This document shows, in pieces, positions 32,082 through 36,234 of a stretch of 43,893 bases of DNA. Origin of the DNA: Chitinophagales bacterium (lineage in GTDB: Bacteria; Bacteroidota; Bacteroidia; Chitinophagales; UBA2359); NCBI GenBank assembly GCA_016787295.1, contig JAEUUX010000033.1:1-43893 (forward strand). The letters run 5' to 3'. Each line of letters begins with the position of its first letter. Positions within the stretch are counted from its first letter, which is position 1. The notes beneath the pieces were generated by a model. That model ran no database searches, was not told where the DNA came from, and saw only the letters and a list, made by a program, of their open reading frames with translations. The position numbers and the translations under genes are program-made.

Positions 32082-32114
32082 TAGGGATATATGGCTATTC
32101 CAAATTTCTTTGCT

Positions 32115-32480
32115 ATGAAAAAAATAATGTGTTTGTTGATCTGTTGTTTTTTGGGGCTAACAATGGCTTGTAATACCGCCAAAAATGGTGGCGAAAATAA
32201 CAGAAATACACCCGCTACTCCCAATGGTTCGCAAAATGGCATTCCGTTGCCTGCACGCGACCCCAATCCACCTGCGGACTATGTGCCGCCGCCACCTCCG
32301 CCGCCGCCACTGACCAATGTGGGCAAAGACTGTGTTGATAAATCAAAGGTGAAAAATCCTAACGAAGACTGTACTTTTTTGTGGGATCCTGTGTGTGGTT
32401 GCAACAATGTAACTTATGAAAACGAATGTTTGGCTCGCAAGGCAGGTGTCCTGAAATGGAAAAAAGGTAAATGTCAATAG
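32115..32480 (+). CDS. Kazal-type serine protease inhibitor, predicted lipoprotein
   Basis: A 121-aa protein with signal MKKIMCLLICCFLGLTMAC, ending in a lipobox-like LTMAC (weak). A polar linker and a proline run (residues ~44-66) follow. The C-terminal ~50 residues are a Kazal domain: Cys73, Cys86, then DPVCGCNNVTYENEC (Cys94, Cys96, Cys105), then WKKGKC (Cys120). This is the P-V-C-G-C-(D/N)-x-x-T-Y-x-N-x-C signature of bacterial Kazal inhibitors, which block serine proteases. It is the last gene of the peptidase/propeptide/Kazal run. The target is unknown; the cysteine peptidase nearby is of a different catalytic type from the classical targets. Confidence 0.88.
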   Translation: MKKIMCLLICCFLGLTMACNTAKNGGENNRNTPATPNGSQNGIPLPARDPNPPADYVPPPPPPPPLTNVGKDCVDKSKVKNPNEDCTFLWDPVCGCNNVTYENECLARKAGVLKWKKGKCQ

Positions 32481-32679: not shown

Positions 32680-32733
32680 TGTATTATTGAAATTATTGCA
32701 AATAGTGTTTTTTTAATATCCTTATCAAATTAA

Positions 32734-33000
32734 CTTACCTTTCGCTAAAAAATATTGGCAAAAAACAAATTGAAATACTTAGCTCAAAGCCCCATTTTAT
32801 GCCTCAAATACGTGAAAATAATGAGCAGAACGCTAAAATACTGTCACTCTTGATCTATTTTTGTTGTAATAGGGCTTCAACAATGCAACATATCGGTTAA
32901 CAAATCTACCCATCCGAGTAAAAAGGAACCCTTTCATGCTAAATGTAGCCCCAAAATACCCGAATCTTTTTTTCGAGTTAATTTTTTAGCGAAAGGTAAG
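32734..33000. mobile_element. 267-bp MITE-like element with 20-bp perfect terminal inverted repeats
   Basis: The left end CTTACCTTTCGCTAAAAAAT (32734-32753) is the exact reverse complement of the right end (32981-33000). AATTAA occurs directly on both outer sides (32728-32733 and 33001-33006), a probable 6-bp target-site duplication. The interior has no open frame of note. It abuts the palindrome array by one base. Confidence 0.75.
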
Positions 33001-33007
33001 AATTAAG

Positions 33008-33461
33008 CTAAACGTTTAGGTGTTCGAGCTAAACGTTTAGGTCTTTTGATTAAACGTTTAGGTTTTTGGGATATCGAAACCTTAAACGTTTAGGTGTTTG
33101 AGCTAAACGTTCAGGTCTTTTGGTTAAACGTTCAGGTCTTTTGGTTAAACGTTTAGGTGTTGGGGTTAAACGTTTAGGTGTTCGAGCTAAACGTTTAGGT
33201 GTTCGAGCTAAACGTTTAGGTCTTTTGATTAAACGTTTAGGTGTTTGAGCTAAACGTTTAGGTGTTCGAGCTAAACGTTTAGGTGTTCGAGCTAAACGTT
33301 TAGGTGTTCGAGCTAAACGTCTCGGTGTTCGAGCTAAACGTTTAGGTCTTTTGGTTAAACGTTTAGGTTTTTGGGATATCGAAACCCTAAACGTTTAGGT
33401 GTTGGGGCTAAACGTCTCGGTGTTGGAGCTAAACGTCTCGGCGTTGAGGCTAAACGGTTGA
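33008..33461. repeat. Array of 21 palindromic 12-bp sites (CTAAACGTTTAG) with 21/32-bp periodicity
   Basis: The site YTAAACGTTTAG starts at 33008, 33029, 33050, 33082, 33103, 33124 and 33145, and onward to 33450. All steps are 21 bp except two of 32 bp (33050 to 33082, and 33355 to 33387), where a longer spacer GTTTTTGGGATATCGAAACC is inserted. Ordinary spacers are 9 bp and few in kind (GTGTTCGAG, GTCTTTTGG, GTGTTGGGG, GTGTTTGAG). Sites 5 and 6 read CAG for TAG at the end. Sites 15, 19 and 20 end CTCG, and the last is broken (CTAAACGGTTGA). No coding potential. Confidence 0.95.
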
Positions 33462-33770: not shown

Positions 33771-33951
33771 CGTGCTTGAGCAAGTGAGCGAATGTCAATT
33801 CATTTTTGAATAAATATAGCTTTTAGTAATAAAATTTGTACGAAGTGGACAGTTTTGGTATTTTTTTTTTAACTTTACCGCCCCAAATGTCCATTGGAAA
33901 CAATGGACTATCGTCTAGCATTTTTTTACCAAAATCAAAAAATTATTGTCA

Positions 33952-36234
33952 ATGAAACTTTTTTTTACTTTGTTCGTCTTTGTTTATTTTTCTTGTTTGA
34001 CTTGGGCTGTGTGTCCGACAGGTCAGGCAGAGGTAAGCATTCAGATTACACCCGATTCCTATGCTGCTCAAGAAACAGATTGGTACTTGTATGATTCCGA
34101 CAACACGCTTTTGGGAAGTGGTAGTACGGGAGATTTGATTACTTGTGTACCTGCCAATGAATGCTTGCGTTTTTTGATTACTGATAGCTATGGAGATGGT
34201 TTAACGACTTCGAGTTTTACGGGTAACTATAGTGTATATTATAATGGCACACTTGTGCAAACAGCAAGTAATTTTGGTTATGATGATGAATTTAATTTCG
34301 GGAATTGTCCTGCGGGTATGAGCTGTTATTTGCCACTTGATATTAATAGTGTTGGCAGTTATACAGCACCGTTCAATAATAGTTGGTATGCTTTTACGCC
34401 CGATACGACCGGCAATTATCTGATTCGTACTTGCGATGCTACCTGCAATACTACTATTTGGGTTTATGACCATTGCGACAATTTGGCATGGGGAGCCAAC
34501 CAAGAGGCTACTATGGCATATAGTGTGAATGGCTGTAGCGCGAGCAATGCTTTGGCTAAATTGACAGTAAGTTTGGTCAAAGACCATATTTATTATATTC
34601 GTATTGGCGGCGATGCCACTTGCGACAACTTGACTGTGCCTTGGGATATGGAATATCTGGGTCCTGTATCAGGCTGTATGGACATCAATGCGTGTAATTA
34701 CAATCCTGTGGCGCTTATTAGCGAACCGGGAGCTTGTCTGTATTCGCCCGACGCAAATTGTCCCGAAGGTCCTGACCTGAAAATTGTGCAATCAGATATT
34801 GTTAGTTCTTTGTCCGTTACAACGCAAACTTATAACAGCAGTTGCTATGTCAATGAAGGTTGTTTGAGTGGTTATGGTACGAGAAAATTATTGCGTTTTA
34901 CGACTCACATCAAAAATATTGGCACTCAAGACTATTATGTGGGTGCGCCGTCGGCAAATAGCGACCAGTGGGAATGGGACGAGTGTCATGGACATTGGCA
35001 CTATGAAGGATATGCTGAATATGTACTTTATACGCTTGATGGCATCGAAATGCCTATTGGTTTCAAAAATGGTTTTTGTGTGTTGGATTTGGAATGTAGC
35101 GATGGTGGTGTGGCTAAGTTTACTTGCAATAATCAAGGTATCACGGCAGGTTGTGGTGATATATACAATTCGAGTTTGGCTTGTCAATGGATAGATATTA
35201 CCAATGTGCCGTCGGGGATTTATACCTTGGTGGTACGGGTCAATTGGGATCAATCGCCCGACAAGTTAGGACACTATGAACTGCGGTATGACAACAATTG
35301 GGCGCAAGTGTGCCTTAATATACAACACACCAGCACGAGCGCAACCGTAAGCGTGGTGAATAATTGTTCGCCATATGTGGATTGTGCAGGACAAATATAT
35401 GGATCGGCTCAACCCGATTGTGAAGGAACTTGTAATGGTCTTCGCAAAGCAGGCGACCTTGATGTGAATTATGTATATGAAGCCAACGATGTTAATACCT
35501 ATCTAAGCAATATCGCCGCCAATACTGCCACCTTGACACCCTGTACCGATTTGGTAGCAGACAACGAAATTGATGTATACGATGCCATTATGCTGAATGC
35601 TTGCATACAAGAAAACAATGGTGGCACACACCCCGGCGGAGCAGGCGTAGAATTTTGTGAATTACCTACTATGGTTCTTGATAATGTCAACGACACGGCT
35701 TGGTTTGGTATTGGAGCGATTAATACCAACCAGAAATTTGTTATTGTTGCGTTGCAAAATCCTTTGGCGCACCTATTGGGCTACCAATTTACTTTGCAAG
35801 GACTTAACATTACCAACGTAGAAACCATTGATCCCACAGCAGGTTATTTACCGCAAATTACCTATAACGCAACTACCAAACGAATCATTGTCTCTTCACC
35901 TACCGAAACGATGACTGACCGTTTTTCTAATCCAACACCTATTCTAAAAGTAAGCTATAGTAGTTTGTCGGGTGGTGAGGTGAAAATCGGGCAAGTAGAA
36001 AGTGTGGTGAACAATAATTACGAAAAAATTGTGGGGCAATGTCGTCCGTTTGTGCAGGGCAACAACAATGTTTGCAATACGGGTGCTTATACCTACGGCG
36101 TTCCGTCGGTCACAGGCACAGGTTTTACTTGGTCAATCAATGGCGGTACTATCCTTTCGGGACAAGGCACCAATATGGTCAATGTCAATTGGAATGGTGG
36201 AACAGTAGGCTCGTTGAATGTTGTTCAGCAATAA
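33952..36234 (+). CDS. Secreted lysyl oxidase-domain protein
   Basis: A 760-aa protein starting MKLFFTLFVFVYFSCLTWA (signal peptide). An N-terminal beta region (to ~245) precedes a lysyl oxidase domain at about 270-460. The copper site is WEWDECHGHWHYEGY (His346, His348, His350). Lys372 in GFKNGFC and Tyr405 in DIYNSSLACQWIDIT align with the Lys and Tyr that form the LTQ cofactor of animal lysyl oxidases. Then come a dockerin-like stretch (DLDVNYVYEANDVNTYL, DNEIDVYDAIML, ~500-550), a cohesin-like beta domain (~575-690) and a short PKD/SprB-like piece. The protein ends there without a T9SS sorting domain. It probably oxidises peptidyl lysine or amines outside the cell; substrate unknown. Confidence 0.88.
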   Translation: MKLFFTLFVFVYFSCLTWAVCPTGQAEVSIQITPDSYAAQETDWYLYDSDNTLLGSGSTGDLITCVPANECLRFLITDSYGDGLTTSSFTGNYSVYYNGTLVQTASNFGYDDEFNFGNCPAGMSCYLPLDINSVGSYTAPFNNSWYAFTPDTTGNYLIRTCDATCNTTIWVYDHCDNLAWGANQEATMAYSVNGCSASNALAKLTVSLVKDHIYYIRIGGDATCDNLTVPWDMEYLGPVSGCMDINACNYNPVALISEPGACLYSPDANCPEGPDLKIVQSDIVSSLSVTTQTYNSSCYVNEGCLSGYGTRKLLRFTTHIKNIGTQDYYVGAPSANSDQWEWDECHGHWHYEGYAEYVLYTLDGIEMPIGFKNGFCVLDLECSDGGVAKFTCNNQGITAGCGDIYNSSLACQWIDITNVPSGIYTLVVRVNWDQSPDKLGHYELRYDNNWAQVCLNIQHTSTSATVSVVNNCSPYVDCAGQIYGSAQPDCEGTCNGLRKAGDLDVNYVYEANDVNTYLSNIAANTATLTPCTDLVADNEIDVYDAIMLNACIQENNGGTHPGGAGVEFCELPTMVLDNVNDTAWFGIGAINTNQKFVIVALQNPLAHLLGYQFTLQGLNITNVETIDPTAGYLPQITYNATTKRIIVSSPTETMTDRFSNPTPILKVSYSSLSGGEVKIGQVESVVNNNYEKIVGQCRPFVQGNNNVCNTGAYTYGVPSVTGTGFTWSINGGTILSGQGTNMVNVNWNGGTVGSLNVVQQ

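Follow-up and report, generated by a model that had tools for sequence, protein, structure and literature searches.

Here we compare a chromosomal array of short palindromic DNA sites with the closest described systems. One of these is the ParB/parS pair of plasmid pSM19035, which, as outlined in PMC9499535, is plasmid-borne, has contiguous 7-bp heptads without a gap and works with a ParA motor. The ParR/parC and TubR/tubC systems, in the account of PMC5016525, combine ribbon-helix-helix or winged-helix proteins with a filament motor. REPs are characterized in PMC3733652 by GTAG or CGTC tags, and their RAYT partner is an HUH transposase. For CRISPR, PMC6344855 gives ranges of 23-55 bp for repeats and 25-60 bp for spacers. 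Lastly, heptamer intergenic repeats (TAACTGA) with no known role have been described in Bacteroidota and other groups (PMC4679880, PMC6344855), and the SPADE survey, as far as its account in PMC6344855 goes, left unexplained why the intergenic tandem repeats of many prokaryotes prefer 7-bp units. Full-text searches of open-licence papers found no description of the array class presented here, and searching such papers by sequence motifs gave an unrelated match only.

The window, by which we mean the whole stretch of 43,893 nucleotides that was analysed, is contig C254 of its own genome (5.42 Mb in 296 contigs). At 33008..33461 (no strand) it holds 21 dyad sites of the form (Y)TAAACGTTTAG, set at 18 steps of 21 bp and two of 32 bp, exactly as the initial annotation had described. 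YTAAACGTTTAG is present in 21 copies over 33008-33461, and allowing up to two mismatches to TAAACGTTTA likewise returns 21 sites within 33009-33460, namely 15 exact, two with one mismatch and four with two. All 15 exact matches to TAAACGTTTA in the window lie inside the array. With up to two mismatches the whole window has 44 matches against 48 expected by chance, so there is no excess, and what stands out from chance is the exact matches and their spacing. With TRF the array comes out in three parts, each of period 21. The first 32-bp step lies between sites 3 and 4 (33051..33092, no strand), with GGTTTTTGGGATATCGAAACC inserted, and the second, between sites 17 and 18 (33356..33397, no strand), is a copy of the first 305 bp downstream; both carry an arm-matched GGTTT...AAACC insert. 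The block of about 70 bp at sites 2-4 is duplicated at sites 16-18, as the annotation had also noticed, and the copy is visible as a 305-bp lag. Because steps of only 21 and 32 bp occur in the window array and in a related array on contig C55, no unit has been missed in either. The annotation further took the sites near the right end to be decayed. Their form, TAAACGTCTC, is however not confined to the right end: it recurs inside the window array, and the C55 array has it at either end as well as in its middle, which makes it a variant common to both arrays and not only a sign of decay.

The array sits between two genes of the same direction, at distances of 528 and 485 bp, which we mention as context only. 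The left one (32091..32480, + strand) encodes a 129-aa protein with a cysteine pattern that we take to be Kazal-like; the right one (33946..36234, + strand) encodes a 762-aa protein with a lysyl oxidase domain and a PKD-like domain. A repeated element of about 280 bp (32726..33005, no strand) abuts the array on its left. Its inverted-repeat arms are 38 nt long (32734-32771 and 32963-33000) and 79% complementary, two further copies of about 92% identity lie at the starts of contigs C170 and C32 of the same genome (L085 1-273 and L120 1-260), and the element appears to be MITE-like.

Such arrays are found at at least 14 contig positions of this genome, although a single array may account for two of them where they lie at contig ends. 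Family A, to which the window array belongs, is also present on C55 (35 units), C62 and C261. A sister family B, with outer arms ACCT/ACGT and steps of 21/22 bp, occurs on C48, C75, C84, C103, C144, C190, C192, C220, C249 and C286. Requiring TAAANNTTTA twice at steps of 20-22 bp gave 146 exact matches in the genome, compared with 2 for the reversed control. In 68 units from four of its arrays what is conserved is the block CTAAACGTTTAGGTNTT, not the 12-bp palindrome alone, with about 5 bp free to vary; the right half is altered in 17 units, the left half TAAA having been part of the search pattern for this comparison. No gene-context bias, including a preference for gene 3' ends, was evident in 19 arrays. 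Strong GGGGGTT/AACCCCC hairpins were seen between the units at C62 and beside C261, and L032, L033, L037 and L038 have hairpins of this type in the gaps separating units or next to lone TAAANNTTTA-like sites.

When two sites were searched for together with up to three mismatches, neither 99 relatives nor 395 genomes of the class gave anything similar, apart from single chance matches in three genomes. The idea of an array family private to this genome was nevertheless dropped, because that search was too narrow and BLASTN and a pattern search found arrays in relatives. BLASTN of the whole array against 198 relatives pointed to three genomes of one genus in another family and, weakly, to G011. 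In G525, G528 and G540 (one genus, another family) there are rows of 8-11 TAAA-NN-TTTA dyads at 21/22-bp steps with unrelated spacers, hardly detected by TRF. With the generalised dyad consensus RSC-TAAA-NN-TTTA-GSY, arrays are known from genomes of three families of the order, G042 being of the third. The pattern search of 396 genomes of the order gave a match in 72, mostly one or two as in the reversed control, whose maximum was 6, in two genomes. The exceptions (pattern/control) were the window's own genome (146/2), G016 (24/0), G525 (9/0), G528 (8/0), G540 (8/2), G042 (5/0) and G011 (3/0); further pattern counts were 7 in G772, from another repeat, 3 in G080, as scattered single pairs, and 3 in G523. 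The TAAACGTTTA dyads of G772, which is of another family, stand at 10/20-bp steps on its contigs C35, C55, C92 and C122 (L324-L327); this is a different repeat with the same dyad and was set aside from the counts.

The spacing of these sites is narrowly kept. When any of the 31 steps from 12 to 42 bp was allowed, 67 of 70 exact pairs in G016, G042, G525, G528 and G540 were found at 21 (45 pairs), 22 (9) or 42 bp (13, of which at least three are isolated), and 3 elsewhere. The reversed control under the same free spacing gave 1 pair in G016, 31 in G042, 3 in G525, 2 in G528 and 6 in G540; in G042 the control thus exceeds the pattern (9), and an excess is present at 21 bp only. In G011, among the 5 of 7 pairs listed, two are at 21 bp, one at 42 bp and two elsewhere. 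Six diverged arrays (G525, G528, G540, G042) with 52 sites have 46 steps, 33 of 21 bp and 13 of 22 bp, chaining having admitted steps of 20-23 and 42-44 bp. Their core positions carry 1.6-2.0 bits, with 11 mismatches in 416 core letters, a conservation partly inflated by ascertainment since the choice of sites permitted 2 of 8 core mismatches. The centre carries 0.17-0.25 bits, the middle of the spacer 0.00-0.14, and each side has three flanking positions of 0.43-1.00 bits, of which the third is symmetric across the site in 30 of the 52 sites, against 19.4 expected (P 0.001). A core kept against near-random spacers is the pattern of a protein site and not of a drifting satellite. Because the core and the 21/22-bp step are kept while the centre and mid-spacer are near random, and because 67 of 70 pairs fall at 21, 22 or 42 bp, the sites look like helix-phased protein sites. 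The annotation had claimed that the palindrome is conserved over the spacers, and this stands for the diverged arrays of other genera and families, but not strictly within the genome itself, where conservation is not limited to the palindrome. It had named lost spacing or lost palindrome conservation in relatives as signs of a neutral satellite, and neither was seen in the other genera and families compared; the further arrays for which it suggested searching are those described above.

Is there a protein that goes with these arrays? G525 and G528 encode proteins of about 160 aa, 80% identical, beside arrays in different surroundings. TBLASTN found the family at eight places, all near 21-bp arrays, in 149 stretches, many of which had been fetched for their arrays, so that the count is biased. 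These places are G525, G528, C84, C103 and C55 (a fragment) of the window's genome, two in G016 and one in G042 (frameshifted). A profile search added a member on C20 of the window's genome, and over whole genomes it gave roughly 80 matches and placed the family in 34 of 298 genomes, often with several paralogs. The gene lies 5 bp from the array in G525, 27 bp in G528, about 155-260 bp in G042 and 226 bp in G016 C140; on G016 C148 it is 104 bp from a 21-bp array with such sites, and in the window's genome the distances are 604 bp (C84), 2.3 kb (C103) and 129 bp (the C55 fragment). The G042 gene is split over two frames at L316 ~1690-2165, by a frameshift or a sequencing error. The array is upstream of the gene in five of the eight loci and downstream in three, so it is not simply the gene's operator. 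Except for C84 and C103, the surroundings of the eight loci are non-syntenic. The family is the best cognate candidate.

Over the window's genome, G016, G042, G369, G011 and G540, 6 of 21 family loci have an array no more than about 2.5 kb away, against 0.12 expected (P ~1e-9); this value is optimistic, as counts were typed by hand, split arrays were counted apart and single exact pairs were taken as arrays, and also as the profile contains members from the window's genome and G016 and the linked genes of these two genomes and G042 had been noticed beforehand. Linkage was met purely by coordinates in G369 only, a genome with just two exact pairs, one of which has a family gene at 0.6 kb and another at 1.1 kb. 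None of six loci in G011 and none of three in G540 is near an array: in G540 the three family genes are on contigs other than that of its array, and none of the 10 family matches in G011 is on an array contig among the pairs listed (5 of 7). All six searched genomes with at least five exact phased pairs have the family, compared with 34 of 298 overall (P 1.5e-6; three of the six are of one genus). In the window's genome 11 of 14 array places (at least 14 are known), that of the window among them, are on contigs that lack a family gene, and several of the arrays end at contig ends. Apart from the C55 fragment, no distant paralog was seen by a TAAANNTTTA array in the window's genome, G016, G042, G369, G011 or G540; the 21-bp array that is 135 bp from the divergent paralog at C20:274-732 is an unrelated one.

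Four family members had no Pfam or NCBIfam match at cut-off and no recognisable DNA-binding domain. Their best weak matches are to Retrotrans_gag (E 0.02) and the MobP3 relaxase (E 0.002, 17.7 bits against a cut-off of 150). The family gave nothing below E 0.02 in PHROGs and no match in PADLOC or among PDB sequences. Of seven members four are acidic (pI 4.8-5.5) and three basic (8.1-8.9), the latter being two of G016 and the one on C20. A Pfam scan of ten other array-adjacent genes returned a polysaccharide flippase, TonB, an FMN-binding protein, a GDSL lipase, a beta-barrel DUF5777 protein, an S74 chaperone, a helix-turn-helix protein, the lysyl oxidase of the window, a DtxR-type repressor and one protein with no match. 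The helix-turn-helix gene, in G042, is 107 bp away from a stretch with three sites. The iron-dependent repressor gene of DtxR type (Pfam above cut-off; L315 3729-4385 in G540) is 24 bp from the TAAANNTTTA array; its product is another candidate for binding that array, and no DtxR-type repressor was seen beside any other array here.

From the dyad, the phased step, its conservation against diverged spacers, the dispersal and the statistical linkage of arrays to a gene, we propose with moderate confidence that the window array is one of a dispersed set of multi-site landing platforms. The DNA-binding protein that lands there would be sequence-specific and probably a dimer, and our candidate partner is the ~160-aa family. 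Each site would be a 16-bp dyad, RSC-TAAA-NN-TTTA-GSY, in the window of the form CTAAACGTTTAG. At two turns (21-22 bp) or three (32 bp) apart, bound dimers would be aligned on one helix face and could stack or cluster. The annotation had suggested a protein that binds each palindrome on one face of the helix; the dyad and the step kept amid unrelated spacers support this. That a protein binds, that it is the ~160-aa family and that it does so cooperatively is what we infer. The same type of platform is apparently dispersed over the chromosome and in other genera and families of the order, and the likeliest partner is, or works with, the family encoded beside some arrays. Could an array such as that of the window, with no family gene adjacent, have the same partner? 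It would then be served in trans. The final role may be local silencing or condensation of DNA, or centromere or nucleoid organisation. Counterweights to this proposal are the family's lack of any known DNA-binding domain, the missing gene at 11 of 14 places, a general habit of 21-bp repeats in this genome and the spacer-centred symmetry of family B, both discussed below. If it is right, this is an unrecognised class of chromosomal site whose candidate partner family is described in none of the libraries searched, and the array geometry is directly testable. A bolder version, possible though doubtful, is a new two-part chromosomal system of one order, in which a fast-diverging multi-copy ~160-aa family has subfamilies that each read their own two-turn-phased array, the TAAANNTTTA arrays belonging to one and the unrelated 21-bp arrays to others.

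The linkage could also be read as that of a selfish repeat cassette similar to REP/RAYT, in which the ~160-aa gene and the array copy themselves, or the gene copies the array, and gene-less arrays are non-autonomous remains. Array and gene do occur together at non-syntenic places in several genomes, next to the C55 array is a fragment of a broken gene, arrays of the same family that lack the gene are dispersed, and there are several paralogs per genome. We consider this reading unlikely, as the protein matches no transposase or nuclease family at cut-off, the relaxase match mentioned above being the best weak one; the left and right flanks of eight loci never match beyond 11 bp; the array is found on either side of the gene; and no relative of the protein was found in viral contigs (profile A1) or plasmids (two members).

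Equally improbable in our view is a neutral minisatellite, i.e. a lineage which duplicates DNA in steps of about 21 bp, two helix turns, regardless of sequence, so that the palindrome is incidental. A process generating 21-bp repeats does operate generally in this genome. A tandem-repeat search of 54 of its stretches (722,806 bp; 53 chosen regardless of arrays, and the window) gave 59 array rows outside clear ORFs, of which 28, four of them supplied by the window, have period 21; the others have periods 22 (two rows), 42 (five), 43 (two), 84 (two), 125/126 (four), 168 (two), 294 (one) and 235 (two), with six heptamers and five single others. The rows occupy 122 bp per kb of non-ORF DNA, about 12% of the sample. 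For comparison, period 21 accounted for 4 of 26 rows (29 bp per kb) in 39 stretches of same-family genomes searched by the same script, 1 of 24 (34 bp per kb) in 24 Bacteroidota icd-gene neighbourhoods and 2 of 20 (25 bp per kb) in 56 stretches of other genomes, where the stretches from the window's genome and its family start at contig starts and are thus array-enriched places. Of 86 contig ends examined in the window's genome, 10 were inside or close to arrays. The 20-22-bp units, targeted loci included, form 25 sequence clusters, and 16 of the 24 besides the TAAA/TTTA cluster have at least three copies. These 24 unrelated clusters mean that two-turn phasing alone does not single out the window array; the helical phase stressed in the annotation is kept as a 21/22-bp step in relatives but is no special mark of this array. 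Seven arrays inspected closely step by 20, 21 or 22 bp and hence are not coding, and the lack of evident gene-context bias also suits a neutral repeat. Local tandem duplication has taken place in the window array, as the block copy at a 305-bp lag and the shared spacer types show. However, the parts of the unit have not diverged alike (core 1.6-2.0 bits against 0.00-0.14 in mid-spacer, with site choice partly ascertained): other families retain the TAAA/TTTA cores amid spacers that are unrelated, the steps of 67 of 70 pairs in five other genomes stay at 21, 22 or 42 bp, and the linkage to a protein gene would be left unexplained. Self-complementarity beyond that of shuffles was found in the TAAA/TTTA cluster only, of the 25.

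The repeat habit raises questions of its own. In a lag analysis, which counts related lags more than once, R was 0.54 at 10.5 bp, 0.47 at 7 bp and about 0.2 at 10 or 11 bp, and from array periods alone 10.5 and 7 were indistinguishable (0.84 and 0.85). Helical A-tract bending gave no 10.5-bp signal inside 23 units; a weak 7-bp A-tract signal had z 2.8-2.9 among 40 tests. Heptamer identity in the 21-bp units showed no excess at rotation by 7 (0.272 against 0.309 expected). No neighbour common to all 21-bp arrays of the genome was found among 333 ORFs near 43 array rows, the exceptions being one set of large proteins of secreted type and a small number of pairs, including that of the two ~160-aa family genes. 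Many unrelated arrays of 20-22 bp or multiples (42, 84, 126, 168) outside clear ORFs were observed in this genome, at L052, L054, L059, L063, L064, L069, L078, L080, L083, L117, L120 and L127. The long tandem arrays at L069 14465-19508 have units of 126 bp, or 6 times 21, and of 168 bp, or 8 times 21; TRF gave no 21-bp sub-units for them. AATTAAC-type heptamer repeats stand beside 21-, 42-, 84- and 126-bp repeats at L080, L113, L114 and L129. Other Bacteroidota seem to prefer other units, mostly 7/14 bp at L165 and 8/16 bp at L206 and L105. As 21 bp is both a multiple of 7 and two helix turns, the preference of this genome may offer a handle on why intergenic repeats of many prokaryotes favour 7-bp units.

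It is very unlikely that the arrays act as single-strand hairpins, with neighbouring arms pairing across the spacer in RNA or ssDNA as an mRNA stabiliser, a terminator or a REP-type structure. The arm types of family B are symmetric across the spacer at 80 of 102 junctions (Fisher P 2e-9, from mutually dependent units), against 51 of 117 cases across the site, and the strong hairpins at C62 and beside C261 also fit such a structure. RNA fold z-scores for 33008-33230 are -7.2 and -13.0 on the two strands, values possible for any palindromic repeat; no known RNA family was found at the window array. What weakens the hairpin reading is that flanks in the diverged arrays show no covariation across the spacer except, weakly, at the first position (31 of 46 against 25.7 expected, P 0.018). 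Moreover, right halves vary in family A while left halves stay, and gene 3' ends are not evidently preferred. Two further candidates can be set aside: a coding repeat (heptad peptide KRLGVRA) is ruled out as steps of 32, 22 and 20 bp shift the frame, and no ORF of at least 80 aa overlaps the window array; an origin from a plasmid, phage or virus was rejected as the array has no blastn match in plasmids or phages, and the 33-bp two-site pattern was absent from viral_contigs and genome_contigs.

How, then, does the proposed landing platform compare with the known systems? It differs from CRISPR in its sites of 12-16 bp and recurring spacers of 9-12 bp. With the heptamer repeats, as these are portrayed in the sources cited above, it shares an intergenic, tandem arrangement, 21 bp being three heptamers, and AATTAAC heptamer arrays are present in this genome too; unlike them, its 21-bp units show no heptamer identity and their core is a dyad. 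Like parS of pSM19035, where according to PMC9499535 the copy number matters for the nucleoprotein complex, it has several copies of a short sequence in a row, but here these are 16-bp dyads at 21-22 bp, dispersed over the chromosome, with a candidate partner of no annotated family. As in ParR/parC and TubR/tubC, repeats lie near the gene of the candidate binder, and one dimer per repeat is the arrangement given for ParR in PMC5016525; the linked ~160-aa protein, in contrast, has no such domain match. No ParB-, ParR- or TubR-type neighbour was found among four family members (Pfam and NCBIfam) and ten other neighbours (Pfam), the one to the right of the window array included, and inspection of the array neighbour lists by eye gave no motor ATPase or GTPase. 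A known partition site, one of the annotation's suggestions, is not borne out, given the absence of a Pfam or NCBIfam match at cut-off in the linked protein and the dispersal of the arrays over many contigs. Like REP/RAYT as presented in PMC3733652, the arrays are dispersed intergenic palindromes, some beside the gene of an associated protein; unlike it, they are long and phased, and the ~160-aa protein has no HUH domain. No HUH tyrosine transposase match was obtained for the linked protein or the ten other array neighbours. A GTAG or CGTC tag is not part of the window units; GTAG does stand at the spacer end in the C140 and C3 arrays of G016. While they fail a tested defining feature of each, the arrays somewhat resemble plasmid partition arrays in the way they would work and REP/RAYT in their distribution.
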